25,073 bases of DNA. It comes from a virus. The notes under the pieces are model-generated. The model made no database searches and was not told where the DNA came from. It was given only the letters and a program-made list of their open reading frames with translations. Positions 4,520 through 25,073 of this stretch are shown piece by piece. Every line of letters starts with the position of its first letter. Within the stretch, counting starts at the first letter, position 1. The stretch covers positions 1-25,073 of the IMG/VR virus record IMGVR_UViG_3300043099_000301. The stretch is one strand, 5' to 3'. The position numbers and the translations under genes were made by a program.

Positions 4520-5014
4520 GTGAGTCCATTATTTCGTAACCCCAGTGGTATTGGTGTGACATTAAGACTTGTTACGCCTCCAACCCCTCCTCCTATTATT
4601 GCGACTCCTCCTCCTATTATCGCTACTCCACCACCAATTATCGCTACACCACCACCTATCATAGCAACGCCACCACCTATCATTGCTACGCCTCCCCCAA
4701 TTATTGCTACGCCTCCACCTATCATCGCAACGCCTCCACCTATCATTGCGACACCACCTCCAATCATTGCAATCATTGCAACACCTCCACCAATCATTGC
4801 AACTCCTCCACCAATTATAGCGACCCCACCTCCTATAATTGCTACACCTCCTCCAATAATTGCAACACCTCCGCCAATTATTGCGACACCACCACCTATT
4901 ATCGCAACTCCTCCACCTATCATTGCGATCATAGCATTACCGTATGAATGTGGTAATGGTTATACGCCTTGTCCAATTGGATTTGGAGATTGTGACAATC
5001 CGTGTGGGTTCTAA
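4520..5014 (+). CDS. Proline-rich repeat protein with 16 PPPIIA units, Cys-rich C-terminus
   Basis: The start is GTG at 4520, placed 5 bases after AAGGAG. The 164 residues form three parts: an 18-residue head (MSPLFRNPSGIGVTLRLV), a 7-residue repeat TPPPIIA present 16 times (residues 23-136) with an extra IIA after unit 9 and after unit 16, and a 25-residue tail with four Cys (CGNGYTPCPIGFGDCDNPCGF). The repeat is identical at protein level while its codons vary widely. Such a block should form an extended polyproline-type rod. It has no signal peptide. It lies among tail genes, directly before a block of prolyl-hydroxylase-like genes, so I infer it is a virion rod or adhesin and the main candidate substrate of that block. 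The family is not recognised. Confidence 0.75.
   Translation: MSPLFRNPSGIGVTLRLVTPPTPPPIIATPPPIIATPPPIIATPPPIIATPPPIIATPPPIIATPPPIIATPPPIIATPPPIIAIIATPPPIIATPPPIIATPPPIIATPPPIIATPPPIIATPPPIIATPPPIIAIIALPYECGNGYTPCPIGFGDCDNPCGF
4586..4927 (+). repeat. 16 tandem 21-bp coding units (PPPIIA-T)
   Basis: Sixteen 21-bp units encode PPPIIAT with no amino-acid change. No two full 21-bp units are identical; units 8 and 16 share their first 18 bases. Every difference is synonymous (Pro CCT/CCA/CCC/CCG, Ile ATT/ATC/ATA, Ala GCA/GCT/GCG, Thr ACT/ACA/ACG/ACC). A 9-bp IIA insertion follows units 9 and 16. The opposite strand also stays open across the array (about 4507-4932), a by-product of the periodicity. 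Confidence 0.95.
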
Positions 5015-5022
5015 ATATAAAA

Positions 5023-5055
5023 GTGGCAGCCTATGTGCGGGGCATAGGTTGCTAC
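5023..5055 (+). promoter_or_regulatory. 13-bp stem-loop between tail genes
   Basis: Arms at 5023-5035 and 5043-5055 pair over 13 bp around a 7-base loop (TGCGGGG). Two of the pairs are G-U, so the structure favours plus-strand RNA. AATATAG, not a U-tract, follows, so it does not look like a classical intrinsic terminator. It may be an RNA processing or stability element or a weak attenuator between the repeat protein and the next gene. Confidence 0.55.
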
Positions 5056-5099
5056 AATATAGTTTCAATGATACAATTAAGTAAATTTAAGGAGAGATA

Positions 5100-5522
5100 A
5101 TGTACGCTTGCGTAGTAAAAAATGAATACGGAACTTGGGATATTTATCGTGTTCTTAATTACACAATTCCTCAAGAAAAAGAGCAGATATTGATAGATGC
5201 TGTTGCAAGTGGTCTTCCAATTGTTCCAATGAACCTTACTGAGTACAGGGATGCTGCCGCAACAGGTGCAACTTGGACTGGCACAGAATGGGTTGGCGGA
5301 CATAAGGTTAAGTTTCCTGATGAATATGAATGGGATGCAACAGAAATTTATTCTTATGTTTGCAACAATCAAATTATTATGTCAGTGCTTTGTATGCAAC
5401 CTAATCATAAAGAGCAGTATGCAGCAATTTTTAGTGAAGAAACAACAATTGTAGATATTCCAGATGATCAACCTTTTAAGGTTGGCGATATTTGGGATGG
5501 CGAGAATATTATTCAGCAGTAA
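5100..5522 (+). CDS. Hypothetical phage protein (140 aa)
   Basis: The start is an ATG after AAGGAGAGATA (5089-5099), a good ribosome binding site. The protein is acidic, without membrane segments or a signal peptide. It contains a TGATWTGTEWVGG stretch around residues 55-68 and ends VGDIWDGENIIQQ. I do not recognise the family. Its place between the PPPIIA protein and the modification block suggests a tail accessory or fibre-assembly role, but this is only context. Confidence 0.6.
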   Translation: MYACVVKNEYGTWDIYRVLNYTIPQEKEQILIDAVASGLPIVPMNLTEYRDAAATGATWTGTEWVGGHKVKFPDEYEWDATEIYSYVCNNQIIMSVLCMQPNHKEQYAAIFSEETTIVDIPDDQPFKVGDIWDGENIIQQ

Positions 5523-5544
5523 AAACAGAAATCAAAGGGGAAAC

Positions 5545-5772
5545 ATGTCAAAATGGCAAGAATGGAAAAAGGCTCAAGGAGAAACAAGACCTTGGCACTT
5601 ATTAGATAAAGAAAAAATAATAACAGATCACAAAATAATTGAAGATAGATTAGCCATCTGTGCTGAATGTCCCTTTCTAATTAAAGCAACAAGCCAATGC
5701 AAGAAATGTGGCTGTTTTATGAATCTTAAAACAAAACTTACAACGGCTCAATGTCCAATAGGAAAGTGGTAA
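5545..5772 (+). CDS. Small zinc-ribbon protein (75 aa)
   Basis: I chose the ATG at 5545 (SKWQEWKK...), 5 bases after AAAGGGGAAA, over the ATG at 5464, which would lie inside the previous gene. Six Cys at residues 39, 42, 52, 55, 57 and 70 sit in CAECPF...QCKKCGCFM...CPIGKW, a zinc-ribbon pattern seen in small proteins of many environmental phages. Its function is unknown. It ends 1 base before the first oxygenase gene, so it heads the same operon and may be an accessory or scaffold for it. Confidence 0.7.
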   Translation: MSKWQEWKKAQGETRPWHLLDKEKIITDHKIIEDRLAICAECPFLIKATSQCKKCGCFMNLKTKLTTAQCPIGKW

Positions 5773-5773
5773 G

Positions 5774-6340
5774 ATGTTTAATGCACATGTGATAGAAAAC
5801 TTTGTATCAAAAGAAGACTGTCAGTATTTAATTAATGCTGCAGTTGCTTCAGATCTATGGCAAACTGCTGGACACGAGTTTTGGGATAACCGTACAATTA
5901 ACTATACTAATATGCTGGTCTTTGATAAGAAGGCTGCTGATATTATGATGGATGCTCTTATTCGTTGTAAAGAAGAAATTAAACAAGCATATGGGTTAGA
6001 TGAGATTTATCCTGACCTTCTTCAGGTAATCCGTTGGTTTCCTGGCATGAGTCAAACACCACACTCAGATGATATGAGCCATACAGATATAACTGGCCAT
6101 GAGCATAGAGCGTTTGGTTCTGTTCTTTACCTCAATGATGACTATGAAGGTGGACACACTTACTACCCAAACTTCAACTTTGATATAACTCCAAAGGTTG
6201 GTGCACTGGCATTTCATCCAGCAGATGTAGAGCATCTTCATGGAGTGACAGAGGTTAAAGAATCAGTAAGGTACACAATTGCTTCATTTTGGACAAAACA
6301 ACAAAATATGGAAATGAAATACGGAGGGGAATTGAGATGA
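5774..6340 (+). CDS. Prolyl 4-hydroxylase-like 2OG-Fe(II) oxygenase A
   Basis: This 188-residue protein has the double-stranded beta-helix oxygenase signature: HxD at H97-S98-D99 (TPHSDD), the strand SVLYLNDDYEGG at 116-127, the distal His within EHLHGV (H156) and the 2-oxoglutarate-binding Arg R166 (VRYTIASFW). The spacing and the YLNDxYxGG strand match prolyl-4-hydroxylase alpha-subunit-type enzymes, which hydroxylate proline using O2 and 2-oxoglutarate. The start ATG is one base after the zinc-ribbon stop, and the next gene overlaps by ATGA. Substrate is unknown; a protein substrate is inferred from the family and neighbours. DNA or small-molecule hydroxylation is the alternative. Confidence 0.85.
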   Translation: MFNAHVIENFVSKEDCQYLINAAVASDLWQTAGHEFWDNRTINYTNMLVFDKKAADIMMDALIRCKEEIKQAYGLDEIYPDLLQVIRWFPGMSQTPHSDDMSHTDITGHEHRAFGSVLYLNDDYEGGHTYYPNFNFDITPKVGALAFHPADVEHLHGVTEVKESVRYTIASFWTKQQNMEMKYGGELR

Positions 6341-6906
6341 AAGAATTAGCACCAGGCATAGTAATATTTGAAGATGTATTTCCTGATTCAATGGAATACC
6401 TTAAGAAAATAGAAGAATCAGACTCATCCTGGATACCTGCAGGAGTATTGCTTACAAACGAACCAGGAAACAAAGTTGGCACAGACTACAAGAGCAGAGA
6501 TACAGACTTGGTTATTCTTCCTGAACATGGAGATACTGCTGATAACCCTTTGTCTAACTTCACAAGAGCATTTTATGAAAGCATGAAGCCTTGTTTAGAT
6601 AAATACATTAACGCCTACGGTGCAGTAATAGAACACATTCAGGCTCCCCAACTTTTGCGGTATGGAAAAGAACAGAAGTTTCATGACCATGTAGACGATC
6701 ATCCACTATTTACAAGAAGAATATCAATGACTTACTACCTAAATGACGATTATGAGGGTGGAGATGTAGAGTTTAGCAAGTATGGGTTAAGGTTTAAGGC
6801 AAAGAAGAACGACCTTTTAATCTTTCCTTCAAACTTTATGTATAACCATGCCGTTCATCCAGTAACAGATGGCCTAAGATATGTGGTGGTTCAATGGACA
6901 CGATAA
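6337..6906 (+). CDS. Prolyl 4-hydroxylase-like 2OG-Fe(II) oxygenase B
   Basis: I use the ATG at 6337, which overlaps the previous stop as ATGA and follows GGAGGGGA (6322-6329), giving 189 residues; an upstream ATG at 6289 lies inside gene A. Iron-binding candidates are H118-V-D120 (HDHVDD) and H174 (HAVHPV), with R181 (LRYVVVQW) for 2-oxoglutarate. The strand YYLNDDYEGGDVEF at 133-146 nearly copies that of enzyme A, so the two are paralogues. This is the prolyl-4-hydroxylase-like family. It is translationally coupled to its neighbours on both sides. Confidence 0.85.
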   Translation: MKELAPGIVIFEDVFPDSMEYLKKIEESDSSWIPAGVLLTNEPGNKVGTDYKSRDTDLVILPEHGDTADNPLSNFTRAFYESMKPCLDKYINAYGAVIEHIQAPQLLRYGKEQKFHDHVDDHPLFTRRISMTYYLNDDYEGGDVEFSKYGLRFKAKKNDLLIFPSNFMYNHAVHPVTDGLRYVVVQWTR

Positions 6907-7460
6907 ACAGAGAAGTTGGATTAATTAAGAATGTCTTAAGTCCTTATGACTTTGACAGACTTCGTATGCATTTTAAGAATAATCCTATTTTAGATTCTAT
7001 GGGCACAGACGAGTTTGGCAGAAAATTGCTGGGAGACAAAGCAGAGCCAATACTACAAGAATTTAGTGAACTACTATTACCAAAGGTAAGAGAATACTTT
7101 AACACAAATACCTGCGTTACATCATATTCACTGTTTGCAGAATATTCTGATGAAACTATCAGTTTAGAAAAGCACAAAGATGTGAACGCCTGTACATATA
7201 CACTTGATTTGGTTCTCTATCAAGGAGATCCATGGGCACTTTACATAGAAGGAAAGCCTTATATAGCCAAGCCAAATGAGGCAATTTTATTCATGGGTGA
7301 GGAATACGAGCATTGGAGAGAAACTCTCTATAACAATACTGGTAAAATAGGAGTAGTCTTTTTCCATTATGTAGAGCCAGATCATTGGTTTATAACTGAA
7401 CCTAAAGAAAAGCACGATGAGATTAGACAACAGATGGCTATTGAGAGGAACTTAAAATGA
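6894..7460 (+). CDS. Divergent 2OG-Fe(II) oxygenase-like protein C
   Basis: The 188-residue protein starts at an ATG inside the end of gene B (13-base overlap). It keeps an HxD candidate at H94-K-D96 (LEKHKDVN), a beta strand run YTLDLVLYQGDPWALYIEGK, the turn AKPNEAILFMGEEYEHWRE with a candidate distal His H140, and VVFFHYV. It lacks the YLNDDYEGG strand of A, B and D and has no obvious downstream Arg like theirs. It is probably a diverged member of the same fold, active or not. Length, position and motif order support this; substrate is unknown. Confidence 0.65.
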   Translation: MDTINREVGLIKNVLSPYDFDRLRMHFKNNPILDSMGTDEFGRKLLGDKAEPILQEFSELLLPKVREYFNTNTCVTSYSLFAEYSDETISLEKHKDVNACTYTLDLVLYQGDPWALYIEGKPYIAKPNEAILFMGEEYEHWRETLYNNTGKIGVVFFHYVEPDHWFITEPKEKHDEIRQQMAIERNLK

Positions 7461-8239
7461 AATTAGAAAAGCACTGTGATGGAAAAGTTTTAATATTTGA
7501 AGACTTTTTAACACCAGAAGAGGTTAATTTGTTAGACTCATTTATGAGGAACTTTAACTATGACGGATTACAGGAACACGAATTTAAGTATTGGGGCAAG
7601 CGTTTAATCAACAATCATCAGATGAAGTTAAATCCAGGATATGAAAATATTATGGACGATGTAATGCCTACTCTAAGCCTTATTCAACAGAGAGTTAAAG
7701 ATGTTCTTAATGAGCATGATCACGAAGCAGACTGGGCTCCCTCTGAACATAATTTAATTAAAATGTTTGATGGAGCAAGCGATTCATTTTACAATGGAAA
7801 CACTGAATTAGAAATGTTTGTCCATATAGATAATCAAGGACACATGGAAAGCCCAATTATGTGGGGCAGCGTTATTTATCTCAATGATGACTACGAAGGT
7901 GGAGAAATCTACTATCCAGATTATGATTATTGGTATAAGCCAAAAGCAGGATCTATGGCTATGCATGAAGGAAATACTCGTCATGGAGTTAAAAAAGTAA
8001 TTTCAGGTGAGCGTTTTTGTGCAGCATCATTAGTTACAATTAGAGGCAACTGGAACGAAAACCCATTGCCAACAAGAACTGACAACCCAGAAAATCCTTA
8101 TCATTATCCACCAGGATATTGGGGCAATCGTTATAAACTTGATCCCATTCAAGGGGAAGTTAAGAACCTTAGAAGCGATGGCTCAGTAGCAGCATTTAAT
8201 CCAGACCCAGAATTGGGAAGGGCAGACGGTAATGCCTAA
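7457..8239 (+). CDS. Prolyl 4-hydroxylase-like 2OG-Fe(II) oxygenase D (C-terminally extended)
   Basis: The start overlaps the previous stop by ATGA. In 260 residues it shows H123-I-D125 (FVHIDNQGH), the strand VIYLNDDYEGGEIYYPDY at 139-156, distal His H176 (TRHGVKKV) and R186 (GERFCAASLV). The last 60 residues, Pro/Asn/Tyr/Gly-rich (NPLPTRTDNPENPYHYPPGYW), extend beyond the usual catalytic core and may contact a substrate or partner. The strand is almost the same at DNA level as in enzyme A, which suggests duplication. Family assignment is strong, the role is inferred. Confidence 0.83.
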   Translation: MKLEKHCDGKVLIFEDFLTPEEVNLLDSFMRNFNYDGLQEHEFKYWGKRLINNHQMKLNPGYENIMDDVMPTLSLIQQRVKDVLNEHDHEADWAPSEHNLIKMFDGASDSFYNGNTELEMFVHIDNQGHMESPIMWGSVIYLNDDYEGGEIYYPDYDYWYKPKAGSMAMHEGNTRHGVKKVISGERFCAASLVTIRGNWNENPLPTRTDNPENPYHYPPGYWGNRYKLDPIQGEVKNLRSDGSVAAFNPDPELGRADGNA

Positions 8240-8807
8240 TATTATTCACATAGATAAAGATTCTATTACTCAACAACACATTCTGGATGCTAAAGAAAAT
8301 CTTGACCTTCTCTACATTCCAAACATAATTCCTTCAACAACTGGTTGGCACGAGTTTATTTATCATTGTGACTATACAGTTAAGCGTCCAGAAATTACAC
8401 TGCCAAGCCCAGTAAAGGTTATTGGTTCTTTACAGATTTGGGATGACCTATTTGTTGCAGGGTATCGTGTTGAAAAAGGAGATTGTTTTAGCCAGTTACC
8501 AGAGGTATTTGCAAAGACAACAGAATTATTTGGAAGAGAGCCAAACAGTGGCTGCACACTTATTAACTTTGTTGGACAGCAAAATACAATTCCAATTCAC
8601 ACAGACTCAAGAGATTCATTCTTGTGGCAGGCAATAGGCTCTGTGGAGTGGAGAATTTTTGAGACAACTGAAGAAGATTCTCCGTATCAAAGTTTAGGAG
8701 TACATGCTGGAGATATGTTATTTGTACCTTCTGGACTTATTCACACAGTGTTTTGTGAAAATCCAAGAGCAGGAATATCAATCTTCTACGATAAACAAGT
8801 TGAGTAA
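8232..8807 (+). CDS. Cupin / JmjC-like oxygenase E
   Basis: The ATG lies 8 bases inside gene D. The 191-residue protein has NTIPIHTDSRDSFLWQAIGSVEWRIF (H123-T-D125), then GDMLFVPSGLIHTVFCENPRAG (distal His H171). That HxD...H arrangement, with GDMLFVPSGxxH, is typical of JmjC/cupin_8-like Fe(II)/2-oxoglutarate hydroxylases, some of which hydroxylate protein side chains (for example ROXA-type and FIH-type enzymes). It differs in fold detail from A-D, so the block holds two oxygenase subfamilies. Substrate unknown. Confidence 0.72.
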   Translation: MPNIIHIDKDSITQQHILDAKENLDLLYIPNIIPSTTGWHEFIYHCDYTVKRPEITLPSPVKVIGSLQIWDDLFVAGYRVEKGDCFSQLPEVFAKTTELFGREPNSGCTLINFVGQQNTIPIHTDSRDSFLWQAIGSVEWRIFETTEEDSPYQSLGVHAGDMLFVPSGLIHTVFCENPRAGISIFYDKQVE

Positions 8808-8809
8808 AA

Positions 8810-9745
8810 ATGATCAGACTTGTTCAGTTAGATCCTAACGGATTATGTAACCTTGGCTGCTGGTTTTGCCCTGTAGCCTATGAAGAAAATCCAGTCATTG
8901 GCAGAAACACAATGTCTATTGACACTATTAGGTCTGTTATTGAACAATTAAAGGCTGGTGTTGGAGATTTTGTAGATCCAAACTTCTCTTTTATTTACAC
9001 AGCACACTACAACGAAGTCTTGCTTTACAAGCACTTCCAGGAGATGCTTGATTTGTTTAGAGAACATGGAATCAAAACAATGGTTCTAACGAATGGTTCT
9101 CCATTAACAAAAGACAAAATGGACATTATCAAAGAATACAGCGATGTAGTTGATTTGATCCATTTCAATACACCTTCTGCAGATGCTGCAACTTGGGCAA
9201 AAATGACGGGGAAGCCTGAAAAGATGCACCAAAGAGTAATGGATAACATAAGATACGCCATAGACAACTTTCCAAACGATAGAGTTACAATGCAGGTAAA
9301 TGGAATTAATGAAACATCTCTTGGCTACATGGAGTTATTACCAAATGCACCAGAGATTGACTTAGACGACAATACTGGTGATACGGCTACTGCTGTTAAA
9401 CAGATGAAAGAAGCCTTTCCAGGAATTAATATTTTTGCAAACACATCATTAGTTGATAGAGCAGGATATCTTGATACTCGTGGAATCATGAAGAATCAGA
9501 TAACTGGCAAAGGTAAGGTAGTTGGCTGTAACAATATGGGAGGCAGACCTGATGCATGGATTCATATCAATGCTAATGGTGCTGTATTCCTATGTTGCAA
9601 TGACTATGACTTTGAAACAGTATTTGGAAATATAAACGATACTCCAATAAAGCAAATTTGGGAAAGCCAAGAAAGACAAGACATGATTAAGCATTCCTAT
9701 GAAAACTTTTGTACAACTTGCATCCATGCTATCTGGAAAGAATAA
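8810..9745 (+). CDS. Radical SAM / SPASM-domain enzyme
   Basis: The 311-residue protein has the radical SAM CxxxCxxC cluster motif near its N-terminus (C13-NLG-C17-WF-C20), which binds a [4Fe-4S] cluster and S-adenosylmethionine. Its C-terminal 70 residues look like a SPASM-type auxiliary cluster region: C240, C262, C263, C301 and C304, with the usual INANGAVFLCCND...GNINDTPIKQIWES pattern. Enzymes of this kind often modify peptides or proteins, also sugars and cofactors. It starts 2 bases after gene E and its stop overlaps the glycosyltransferase start (TAATG), so it belongs to the same unit. Reaction unknown. Confidence 0.88.
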   Translation: MIRLVQLDPNGLCNLGCWFCPVAYEENPVIGRNTMSIDTIRSVIEQLKAGVGDFVDPNFSFIYTAHYNEVLLYKHFQEMLDLFREHGIKTMVLTNGSPLTKDKMDIIKEYSDVVDLIHFNTPSADAATWAKMTGKPEKMHQRVMDNIRYAIDNFPNDRVTMQVNGINETSLGYMELLPNAPEIDLDDNTGDTATAVKQMKEAFPGINIFANTSLVDRAGYLDTRGIMKNQITGKGKVVGCNNMGGRPDAWIHINANGAVFLCCNDYDFETVFGNINDTPIKQIWESQERQDMIKHSYENFCTTCIHAIWKE

Positions 9746-10659
9746 TGAAGAAAAGCATATTTGTCCAAATATCAAGTTATCATGATAATGAAATTGAAAA
9801 GACTGTAAGAAACGCCTTATTAAAATCATCAGGTGAAAATCATATAGTATTTGGGATTCACTCAATATTTTATGAAGACAATAGTTGGCTAAACACTCTT
9901 AAGCAATTACCAGACATAAGAATAATTGAATCCAAAGCCCCTGAAAATATTGGGGTAGGCATAGGAAGAAGCATTGCCCATCAACTATATGCTGGAGAAG
10001 ACTACTACTTTCAAATAGATGCTCACAGTAGATTTGATCAAAATTGGGACACATTTTTAATTAATGAAATAAATAGGCATAAATCCAACGGATTTAATAA
10101 GCCATTAATCACGCAATATCCAAAGCCATTTTGGTATGAGGGCGATGAAGAAAAAACAAGACAAGCCAAAGAAGAAGTTACTCAATTTTATTGGAAAGAT
10201 AAGCAAAGATTTAAACAATATAGAATTCCTATGCAAGGAACTATACAAAATCCAGAAGGAAACATCCACTCCATATCTGTATCTGCTGGATCATTATTCA
10301 CAGAAGGCGAATTCTTAAAGCCTAACAAATTAATGTTTTTTGATGGAGAAGAATTACTAATGGCTGCAAGAGCCTATACTCATGGGTATGATTTATTTGT
10401 ACCAAGCCAGATGTTTATGTATCACTTATATTACGGTGCAGAAGGTTATTATAGAAGAAGGCTTGTTCCAAGCGATTGGCCAGATCAAGCAAAAGAATTA
10501 GAAGAAAAATCTAATCAAGAAGTAAGACTTGTTCTAACTGGTGAAGGCGTAGTTGGAGAAGGAAGACTTGGGACTGAAAGAACACTTCAAGACTATGGAA
10601 AATTCTGTGGTCTTGATTTTAACACTGGAGAGATTCTCTCTAACTACCAACACACATAA
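9745..10659 (+). CDS. GT60-like glycosyltransferase (polypeptide hydroxyproline GlcNAc-transferase family)
   Basis: I use the ATG at 9745 (overlapping the previous TAA), giving 304 residues; an ATG at 9709 would lie inside the radical SAM gene. Recognisable family features, in order: an N-terminal SIFVQISSYHDNE strand, GRSIAHQLYAGEDYYFQIDAHSRFDQNWD (residues 74-102, with a metal/nucleotide motif D92-A-H94), and FFDGEELLMAARAYTHGYDLFVP (198-220). These match the GlcNAc (PF11397)/CAZy GT60 group, whose studied member in Dictyostelium adds GlcNAc to a hydroxyproline made by a prolyl 4-hydroxylase. Its place after a run of prolyl-hydroxylase-like genes fits that two-step chemistry. Sugar donor and acceptor are inferred. 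Confidence 0.85.
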   Translation: MKKSIFVQISSYHDNEIEKTVRNALLKSSGENHIVFGIHSIFYEDNSWLNTLKQLPDIRIIESKAPENIGVGIGRSIAHQLYAGEDYYFQIDAHSRFDQNWDTFLINEINRHKSNGFNKPLITQYPKPFWYEGDEEKTRQAKEEVTQFYWKDKQRFKQYRIPMQGTIQNPEGNIHSISVSAGSLFTEGEFLKPNKLMFFDGEELLMAARAYTHGYDLFVPSQMFMYHLYYGAEGYYRRRLVPSDWPDQAKELEEKSNQEVRLVLTGEGVVGEGRLGTERTLQDYGKFCGLDFNTGEILSNYQHT

Positions 10660-18700: not shown

Positions 18701-19231
18701 ATGACTGCAGGAAGACCACCAAAACCAACGGAACTTAAAAGATTATTGGGCAATCCTGGGCAAAGACCTTTACCAGATTTAAATAATATTACGCACTTGC
18801 CCATGGCCAGAGAAATCCCAACACCACCTGATACTCTTGGTGAGACAGGAATTAATCTTTGGAATCGTGCTTGGGGTATGGCTGTTACTTGGCTTAGTCC
18901 TGTTAGTGATATTGATGCAATTTCTAATGCTGCATTTTTGGCTGATGCTTCAGAGGCAGCAAGAAATAAATATATGGCTACCCTTGAGAGCAACGATGGT
19001 AGAGCCTTTGTCGCAATTAATAAAGCATACACTGATGCGTTAGCATCTCTTGGCTTTGATCCTATTGCGAGATCACGCTTAGGCGTTGCAGAGGTCAAGG
19101 CTGCAACCTCTATTGACAAACTTTTGGAAAGAAGGCACAACAGAGCCAATGCTGCTACAATTATTGTAGAGGCTGAATCTGAATTGATAGAAACAGGGGA
19201 TGAAGTAATAAATGAAACAAATAGCAATTAA
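18701..19231 (+). CDS. terS: Terminase small subunit (P27-type)
   Basis: I start at ATG 18701, 11 bases after GGAG, since the protein then opens MTAGRPPKPTELKRLLGNPGQRPLP, the classical N-terminus of P27-family small terminases. An earlier in-frame TTG (18596) would translate the hairpin region. It has 176 residues, helical, with the usual WxxAWGMAVTWLSPVSDIDAISNAAFLAD segment. It recognises phage DNA ends for packaging. It overlaps the S1-domain gene by 20 bases, not the large terminase directly, which is unusual. Confidence 0.83.
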   Translation: MTAGRPPKPTELKRLLGNPGQRPLPDLNNITHLPMAREIPTPPDTLGETGINLWNRAWGMAVTWLSPVSDIDAISNAAFLADASEAARNKYMATLESNDGRAFVAINKAYTDALASLGFDPIARSRLGVAEVKAATSIDKLLERRHNRANAATIIVEAESELIETGDEVINETNSN

Positions 19232-20012
19232 CGATATAGGAACGGCAGAGGATTTTATGGCTGCCATAGATGCATCCATGAAGACCTTTAAGATCAAGGA
19301 GCCAGTATCTGGCACAGTTGTTCAAATTGGTCGTGATGGTGCACTTGTGGATATTGGCGATAAGACAGAAGCCTTTATCCCAAAGACTGAAATATCAAAT
19401 CGTAAGGATGCCTATATCTATGATGTGCTCCAACTTGGGCAGGTAGTAGAAGCAATAGTCCTAAATAAGAATGAAGAAGGACAGTACATACTATCCCTAA
19501 AACAGAATGAAGTAGAATCCATGTGGGAAGATCTTCAAAAGAGTTTTGAAATGTCTTACCCTATTATGGGCAAGGTTGTTAAAATGGTCAAAGGTGGCCT
19601 AATTGTTGATATTGGAATTAAGGCCTTTTTGCCTGGTTCTCTAATTGATGTAAATAGAGTTACAGACTTTGAATCATATATTGGACATGAGGCTGAATTC
19701 TTAATTCACTCAATTGATAGAGCAAAAGGAAGTATCGTTCTTAATCGCCGTTCACTTATTGAGCAAATGCAAAAGGAAGATAAGCAAATTGAATTTGCTA
19801 AATTAGCCATAGGCCAAGTACATAAGGCTAAGGTTTCAGGAATAACTGACTATGGTGTGTTTGTTGAAATGGGAATGCTTGCAGGTCTTGTTCATAAGTC
19901 CAAGATGGGCCAATCATTACCTGAGTCCTATACTATGGACCAGGAAGTAGAAGTTGAAATTATAGATATTGACTTTGAAAAGAACAGGCTTTCGTTAGCA
20001 TTTAGAGGTTAG
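19212..20012 (+). CDS. Three-domain S1 RNA-binding protein (bS1-like)
   Basis: The 266 residues hold three S1-type OB domains: about 29-98 (GTVVQIGRDGALVDIGDKTEAFIP), 115-182 (GKVVKMVKGGLIVDIGIKAFLPGS) and 199-265 (HKAKVSGITDYGVFVEMGMLAGLVHKSK). This resembles a shortened ribosomal protein S1. S1 proteins bind single-stranded RNA and help start translation; phages also use host S1. It lies between the two terminase genes, overlapping terS by 20 bases and ending 1 base before terL. It may help translation of phage mRNA or bind nucleic acid during packaging; which is unknown. Confidence 0.85.
   Translation: MKQIAINDIGTAEDFMAAIDASMKTFKIKEPVSGTVVQIGRDGALVDIGDKTEAFIPKTEISNRKDAYIYDVLQLGQVVEAIVLNKNEEGQYILSLKQNEVESMWEDLQKSFEMSYPIMGKVVKMVKGGLIVDIGIKAFLPGSLIDVNRVTDFESYIGHEAEFLIHSIDRAKGSIVLNRRSLIEQMQKEDKQIEFAKLAIGQVHKAKVSGITDYGVFVEMGMLAGLVHKSKMGQSLPESYTMDQEVEVEIIDIDFEKNRLSLAFRG

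Positions 20013-22022: not shown

Positions 22023-22023
<1 letters not shown>
21676..22023 (+). CDS. Beta-sandwich structural protein (115 aa)
   Basis: Start is GTG 21676, 6 bases after AAAGGAG. The 115 residues are beta-rich ([17 protein letters not shown]...[22 protein letters not shown]...[12 protein letters not shown]...[15 protein letters not shown]), a pattern widespread in small phage virion-associated proteins. Its stop overlaps the start of the giant fibre gene (TAATG), so it may be a fibre adaptor or baseplate accessory. Confidence 0.65.

Positions 22024-25073
<3,050 letters not shown>

Follow-up and report, generated by a model that had tools for sequence, protein, structure and literature searches.

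The DNA analysed here, a 25-kb virus record (IMG/VR record IMGVR_UViG_3300043099_000301, positions 1 to 25,073; the window in the following), carries a gene for a PPPIIAT tandem-repeat protein followed by genes for several 2-oxoglutarate (2OG)-Fe(II) oxygenases, a radical SAM enzyme and a GT60-family glycosyltransferase. We consider this locus to be probably a maturation cassette for one phage protein, whose repeat would be hydroxylated and glycosylated to form a rod on the virion tail, with repeat and enzymes being exchanged together. That the cassette modifies the neighbouring repeat protein is well supported, and hydroxylation of the proline of the repeat is likely, as judged from sequence profiles and structural models. 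The gene content, the co-occurrence and covariation of repeat and enzymes, the fold and the catalytic residues were established directly. The features of the locus are the following (P4H, prolyl 4-hydroxylase).

4520..5014, + strand: PPPIIAT tandem-repeat protein, 164 aa, proposed substrate; GTG start after AAGGAG
4586..4936, + strand: repeat array (PPPIIA[T/I])16, from the sequence
5100..5522, + strand: small protein, function unassigned; present in some relatives only, at the same place, 40-48% identity
5545..5772, + strand: DUF6171 Cys-rich (zinc-ribbon-like) protein, usually the first cassette gene; PF19668, 6e-10
5774..6340, + strand: P4Ha, prolyl-4-hydroxylase-like 2OG-Fe(II) oxygenase; Pfam 2OG-FeII_Oxy_3, 9e-9
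6337..6906, + strand: P4Hb, prolyl-hydroxylase/PKHD-like 2OG-Fe(II) oxygenase, ATG at 6337; Pfam 2OG-FeII_Oxy_3, 2e-16
6894..7460, + strand: OXc, diverged 2OG-Fe(II) oxygenase; AlphaFold2 model with double-stranded beta-helix, HxD..H motif
7457..8239, + strand: P4Hd, 2OG-Fe(II) oxygenase; PHROG oxygenase profiles and conserved HxD..H..R
8232..8807, + strand: JmjC_2/cupin-type 2OG oxygenase; Pfam, 3e-9
8810..9745, + strand: radical SAM (CxxxCxxC) and SPASM enzyme; Pfam, 8e-14 and 3e-12
9745..10659, + strand: GT60-family glycosyltransferase (PF11397, N-acetylglucosamine (GlcNAc)); Pfam 1.7e-35, score 123.6 against a cut-off of 21 bits

The repeat protein consists of a conserved N-terminus (VSPLFRNPSGIGV), 16 PPPIIA units and a C-terminus rich in Cys. 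An earlier interpretation of this DNA from its letters alone (the sequence-only reading) had counted 16 copies of PPPIIAT; the number holds for PPPIIA, while only 14 of the units are full PPPIIAT. These 14 units have 14 distinct DNA sequences, in which codon positions 1 and 2 are constant and position 3 alone varies. Since the DNA of the units differs at third codon positions only, the PPPIIAT peptide itself is under strong selection, and slippage is not the source of the repeat. An antisense frame encoding GGGVAII was considered as a gene and rejected as a shadow of the repeat.

The gene order is tape measure (phrog_991, 1e-8), tailA and tailB (labels for two tail-region genes without assigned function), PPPIIAT protein, the gene at 5100-5522, DUF6171, P4Ha, P4Hb, OXc, P4Hd, JmjC_2, radical SAM/SPASM, GT60, a holin-like gene and an M15 endolysin gene, the cassette site lying between the tail genes and the endolysin. 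The cassette genes abut or overlap, in agreement with their earlier description as one overlapping unit; the gene at 5100-5522 and DUF6171, which separate the repeat gene from the block, had not been named there.

Covariation of repeat and enzyme set

Related contigs, which belong to uncultured water phages, were collected by two kinds of search. A DNA pattern for PPPIIATPPPIIA matched 17 viral stretches, and looser IIA-repeat patterns yielded more. The proteins found in this way differ in their N-terminal parts (VSPLFRxPSGIGV, Fn3 or PASTA repeats) and terminate in a Hint-like domain or in a variable tail rich in Cys; wherever the contigs reach far enough, DUF6171 and oxygenases are encoded downstream of the repeat gene. 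Furthermore, a pattern for the N-terminus only, blind to repeat and enzymes, gave 46 matches, including same or near-identical contigs and some that end inside the repeat. All 46 carry proline-containing tandem repeats, followed by DUF6171 and modifying enzymes where the contig continues. The co-occurrence of PPPIIA-type proteins with the enzyme block in related contigs, for which the sequence-only reading had proposed to search, was thus found.

The repeats of the relatives take the forms PPPIIAT, PPIIAVT, TPIIAT, PPPPIIIAT, PT, PPVV, PPVT, APTPV, APPV, PVPV, poly-P and TTTTTTPAP, and the enzymes vary with them. JmjC accompanies PPPIIAT and PPIIAVT repeats, the PPIIAVT loci having a second JmjC gene. 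TPIIAT loci have neither JmjC nor P4Ha; they encode a sugar epimerase and a weak O-fucosyltransferase-like protein (8e-4, below the cut-off). At loci with GT60 and without PPPIIA, (PT)n-type proteins are encoded at the same place. Further cassette genes encode GT61, UDP-glucose dehydrogenase, epimerases, a carbamoyltransferase, a sulfotransferase and an Asp/Asn hydroxylase, a range that, by sequence assignment, corresponds to a glycoprotein-type tool kit. In one version of the cassette (L079 3691-4482, L083 2007-2762 and others), a DUF6065 protein (PF19541, 1e-36) replaces P4Hb.

For a quantitative comparison, 20 cassettes complete from the repeat gene to the holin were used. The similarity of the enzyme sets (Jaccard) was 0.53 within repeat classes and 0.20 between them, and the association of repeat class with enzyme set, after tailB or tailA identity had been regressed out, gave a permutation p of 5e-5, the lowest value that 20,000 permutations allow. 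Because the repeat classes were named after the data had been seen, a class-free test based on dipeptide composition was run on the same cassettes, with r=0.42 and p=5e-5. The identity of the phage backbone does not predict cassette content (r=-0.08). Among deduplicated DUF6171 (D6171) cassettes having a repeat, P4Hd accompanies PII-type repeats in 15/15 and other repeats in 0/38, a count uncorrected for phylogeny. Among those with enough upstream sequence, a Pro-repeat protein is encoded within 4.5 kb upstream in 33 of the 35 with a P4H and in 8 of the 20 without, compared to a background of 2.7% of open reading frames; in L021, one of the two misses among the 35, a TPTP protein is encoded farther upstream. 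In this sense the sequence-only reading was right to treat block and repeat protein as a functional pair, as they co-occur in related contigs and the enzyme set follows the repeat unit and not the backbone.

Two pairs of contigs display the exchange itself. In L008 and L069, 111 of 114 N-terminal residues are identical, while the repeats are PT and PPPIIAT and the enzymes P4Hb-OXc2-radical SAM-GT60-epimerase and P4Ha-DUF6065-OXc2-P4Hd, respectively. L084/L096 and L175/L170 share the N-terminus (217/231 residues, 94%), the C-terminus (46/47, 98%) and DUF6171 (90% identical), whereas PPPIIAT is exchanged for PPIIAVT, identity between the enzymes drops to just 48-60% and the JmjC genes increase by two. 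Thus, the flanks stay constant while repeat and enzymes are exchanged together.

Such a pattern could in principle result from inheritance only, if repeat gene and enzymes shared recombining segments and did not act on each other; the genes lie side by side, and the tail region clearly recombines. We regard this explanation as quite unlikely. Same-class cassettes recur on backbones just 51-62% identical, and there are convergent, mutually unrelated pairs of repeat and enzymes, namely Thr-rich repeats with GT60 and no P4H, PPFF repeats with 4-11 P4Hs, and poly-P with P4Ha and GT61.

More distant phages provide the PPFF case. In a second, larger phage group (L189-L256, e.g. L237, L239, L248, L231 and L255), PPFF/PPGFF/PPYF/PPHF repeat proteins were observed, some of them with Fn3. 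Within distant phage P4H clusters, a Pro repeat of some kind (PPFF, PPGFF, PPYF; a few collagen-like) is present in 38/52 loci, and the PPFF-type loci contain 4-11 prolyl-hydroxylase-like genes each. For P4H loci of bacterial genomes, a Pro repeat was found in 2/41.

Several points weigh against a cassette acting on the adjacent repeat protein. The repeat and enzyme genes are neighbours, so that shared inheritance explains part of the association; the contigs share ancestry, for which the Fisher tests make no correction, and the repeat classes were, as said, named in hindsight. L242 has P4Hs with no repeat found, the cultured cyanophage loci examined have 2OG oxygenases, partly beside tail fibre genes, without a Pro repeat, and many phage 2OG oxygenases occur apart from such repeats. 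The hydroxyproline proposed for the phage is deduced from genes and models, and the putative virion location of the repeat protein from gene position and fusions; for OXc, P4Hd, JmjC and the radical SAM enzyme, sequence gives no guide to the substrate.

Oxygenases and their likely substrate

The sequence-only reading had described three prolyl-4-hydroxylase-like oxygenases and one diverged relative. That all four are 2OG-Fe(II) oxygenases is borne out by Pfam for P4Ha and P4Hb, by PHROG profiles and motif for P4Hd, and by model and motif for OXc. Their catalytic residues are present, with the iron ligands of all four being invariant in 12-14 homologues. In P4Ha, H97, D99, H154 and R166 are unchanged across 14 homologues, with Arg replacing the usual Lys as the basic 2OG-binding residue. 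When its profile was compared to the PDB, almost solely prolyl hydroxylases were matched (Bacillus anthracis P4H with 4e-7, P3H1, PBCV-1 and Chlamydomonas P4H). The AlphaFold2 model of P4Ha (pLDDT 90) is a double-stranded beta-helix closest to protein prolyl hydroxylases: Foldseek gave PBCV-1 vCPH as top match (1e-11), and superposition gave Z 20.2 with human P3H1 (root-mean-square deviation 2.6, 177 aligned) and Z 18.0 with the algal (Chlamydomonas) P4H bound to (Ser-Pro)5 (2.7, 165 aligned). In P4Hb, H118, D120 and H171 are invariant and the HxD...H..R/K pattern is present; its profile matches B. anthracis P4H (5e-10) and PKHD hydroxylases (9e-7), with P4H and PiuC-like PKHD enzymes being inseparable.

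The residues H123, D125, H176 and R186 of P4Hd are invariant as well, and its profile matches P3H1, P4H and PiuC, all weakly. In OXc, H94, D96 and H140 are invariant in 14 homologues, with no obvious counterpart of the usual basic ligand of 2OG. A sequence search of the PDB with OXc gave no match; its model has the superfamily fold, with SnoN, HalB and PHD2 all matching within about 1.5 Z, so that the subclass is tied. The expected grouping with characterised prolyl hydroxylases therefore held for P4Ha and P4Hb, for which sequence profiles and, in the case of P4Ha, the model place them with protein prolyl hydroxylases, apart from DNA or small-molecule hydroxylases; for OXc and P4Hd the matches are tied or weak. 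These two are the best candidates to act at the P-I-I part of the repeat.

In bacterial genomes no orthologue of P4Hd was found, the matches being at most 30% identical over long alignments or short fragments. By tblastn, P4Hd and the radical SAM protein were found in none of the cultured phages, and the homologues of GT60, P4Ha, P4Hb and DUF6171 in cultured phages are remote only.

An unlikely alternative is that the enzymes act on another target, be it host surface sugars, the cell wall, DNA or some small molecule, and that chance has placed them with the repeat gene at a variable cargo site beside the tail genes. Glycosyltransferase, oxygenase and radical SAM genes are indeed common phage cargo, and in cultured cyanophages both 2OG oxygenases and DUF6171 occur, in part close to tail genes, with no Pro repeat alongside. 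However, the grouping of P4Ha and P4Hb with protein prolyl hydroxylases speaks for a protein substrate, and chance sharing of a site predicts neither an enzyme content that tracks the repeat unit nor swaps with constant flanks.

The window also encodes a collagen-like tail fibre (22023-25073), the gene of which runs off the contig end. Collagen is the classical substrate of P4H, and this protein, which resembles phage tail fibre families, contains 95 Gly-X-Y triplets in long runs; it could accordingly be the real substrate, as collagen is in animals and mimivirus. We consider this highly improbable and have rejected the fibre as the main substrate: Y is Thr at 71 positions and Pro at 0/95, whereas the classical collagen P4H acts on X-Pro-Gly. 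Moreover, the gene is located at the opposite end of the window, and cassette content is tied to the adjacent repeat, not to the fibre.

The glycosyltransferase and its probable acceptor

Pfam confirms the JmjC/cupin, radical SAM and GT60 genes that the sequence-only reading had named; a PDB sequence search with the GT60 protein gave no relative. The same reading had paired GT60 with hydroxyproline, a pairing for which the comparison of loci gave no support in this form. GT60 is absent from several PPPIIAT or PPIIAVT cassettes (L079, L074, L083) and is present with TTTTTTPAP repeats in L333, which has no hydroxylase whatever. GT60 as the defining partner of PPPIIA was accordingly rejected, as it is optional in the cassettes. 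GT60 genes without a P4H lie near oligo-Thr proteins in 13/24 cases, compared to 8/208 background windows. Because of these counts and those for P4H and Pro repeats, it can be stated that the hydroxylases follow proline and GT60 follows threonine. Since GT60 without P4H adjoins oligo-Thr proteins, Thr is the simpler acceptor and, on sequence grounds, a likelier one than hydroxyproline. Poly-P cassettes without Ser or Thr carry GT61 (L321); for a repeat of this kind, a hydroxyproline acceptor would therefore be needed.

Mucin-like oligo-Thr proteins were seen next to phage GT60, with no hydroxylase, in L024, L025, L027, L034, L037, L044, L045 and L333. The reading that DUF6171-GT60 loci without P4H have no repeat is incomplete, as more of the flanking sequence shows Thr-rich tracts in most of them. 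The radical SAM/SPASM gene often directly adjoins a GT60 or GT61 gene (L329, L336, L338, L321; window 8810-10659), which hints at a joint step.

Proposed pathway and known systems

As for the reactions, their order, the target residues and the virion role, we infer the following scheme. The phage would make the tandem-repeat protein (PPPIIAT x16) from the tail gene region, and the enzymes encoded downstream would modify it in the host cytoplasm. P4Ha, together with P4Hb, P4Hd, OXc and JmjC, would hydroxylate residues of the repeat. P4Ha and P4Hb would target proline, P4Hd and OXc either proline or isoleucine; the occurrence of P4Hd parallels that of the PII motif. One further change may be made by the radical SAM enzyme, after which GT60 would add N-acetylhexosamine to the repeat, with threonine a more probable acceptor than hydroxyproline. 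What results would be a rod, stiff and coated with sugar, that connects the conserved, anchoring N-terminus to the variable Cys-rich tip and serves as stalk or adhesin on the tail of the virion. When recombination changes the repeat unit, the enzyme set would be exchanged along with it. A role as stalk, shield or adhesin and the location in the virion are suggested by the gene position and by the fusions to Fn3 and PASTA.

The arrangement also resembles clusters for ribosomally synthesized and post-translationally modified peptides (RiPPs), in which a ribosomal substrate is encoded with co-varying tailoring oxygenases and radical SAM/SPASM enzymes. The repeat protein might then be a precursor from which, after modification and cleavage, a toxin, signal or anti-competitor peptide is released, and not a part of the virion. 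Its small size, Cys-rich end and the logic of precursor plus tailoring enzymes, with a radical SAM/SPASM enzyme among them, would fit, as would the C-terminal Hint-like domains of some relatives. Nevertheless, we judge this very unlikely, since relatives fuse the same kinds of repeat to Fn3 and PASTA domains and also to proteins several hundred residues long (L014, L020), the locus is flanked by tail and lysis genes, and no protease or exporter was found among the genes identified in the cassettes. A leader was not apparent either. The Hint-like (hedgehog/intein-type) domain stands right behind the repeat in L092 (2083-4164), L149 (2732-3757), L158 (1-1191) and L186 (5593-6975); it suggests self-cleavage, the Pfam intein match being weak (0.024).

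Among known systems, a modified virion rod would be most reminiscent of the plant hydroxyproline-rich glycoproteins (extensins, arabinogalactan proteins and proline-rich proteins; reviewed in PMC4132260). Like the phage loci, these combine Pro-rich repeats (PPPP, TPTP, APAP, PPV-like) with P4H-family hydroxylases and glycosyltransferases, and both products are probably stiff sugar-coated rods; the defining Pro-rich tandem repeat is found in the window protein. In contrast to the plant system, the phage cassettes use other glycosyltransferase families, have no secretory pathway, occupy a single locus and include the extra JmjC and radical SAM enzymes, and their hydroxyproline is predicted.

In the Dictyostelium Skp1 pathway, a P4H-family and a GT60-family enzyme (GnT1) act in one modification path. 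Skp1 differs in that one proline of a non-repetitive protein is modified, whereas the phage GT60 genes accompany Thr-rich repeats even where P4H is absent. Trypanosome GT60 polypeptide alpha-GlcNAc-transferases act on Thr of mucin-like repeats, an acceptor that fits the Thr tracts beside phage GT60, although these are eukaryotic membrane enzymes that work without hydroxylases. Mycobacteriophages have glycosylated tail proteins, and actinobacterial phages encode glycosyltransferases beside tail genes; we know of no hydroxylase cassette or matched repeat swapping in connection with mycobacteriophage tail glycosylation. For the chlorovirus PBCV-1, viral Pro-rich repeat peptides are substrates of vCPH, the virus-encoded P4H that is the best Foldseek match of P4Ha. 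The PBCV-1 enzyme differs from the phage system as a single enzyme of an algal virus with no known cassette. According to the account given in PMC7019647, which cites Eriksson 1999, vCPH acts on Pro-containing peptides, while hydroxyproline was not detected in virions and the role of the enzyme, the one viral P4H that has been studied, is unknown (PMC7019647).

The viral use of prolyl 4-hydroxylase "remains cryptic" (PMC9301287). A 2026 survey found EGLN-like (prolyl-hydroxylase-like) oxygenases to be widespread in phages, and no human protein was matched by phage proteins more often than EGLN3 (PMC12774648). In the open-licence literature we found no paper connecting phage P4H to Pro repeats or describing a repeat-matched cassette, in keeping with the statement of the sequence-only reading that it knew of no phage system with this pairing. 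What is new, by the measure of that literature, is the linked, interchangeable system of substrate plus cassette, the individual enzyme families all being known.

We give roughly even credence to the broader idea that phages evolved, independently of plants, a large, modular class of hydroxylated and glycosylated tail repeat proteins in which every unit has its own hydroxylases, radical SAM enzymes and glycosyltransferases and is exchanged along with them, including the Thr-rich, mucin-like (GT60) and PPFF types (up to 11 P4H paralogues), the enzyme sets forming a readable residue code that would include isoleucine hydroxylation in PII units. Should the proposed modification be real, glycoproteins of the hydroxyproline type, which until now have characterised plants, algae and animals, would also occur on phage virions, and the repeats with their matching enzymes would amount to a natural assortment of hydroxylases and glycosyltransferases, each specific for a sequence. 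The likely substrate adjoins the enzymes and changes with them, and the question is therefore directly testable with short synthetic repeats.

As to the remainder of the window, the terminase is nearest to that of Pontimonas phage phiPsal1 (46%) and the M15 endolysin is similar to many actinophage lysins, so that an actinobacterial host is likely, judging by these similarities. DUF6171 is retained in nearly all relatives; it was also observed to precede GT60-only sets and to occur near the tail genes of one cultured cyanophage. Directly ahead of the terminase, the gene at 19212-20012 encodes a protein with three S1 domains that is similar to ribosomal protein S1 (NCBIfam PRK07899, 1e-70, under its cut-off), and a counterpart (51%) is found in L018.

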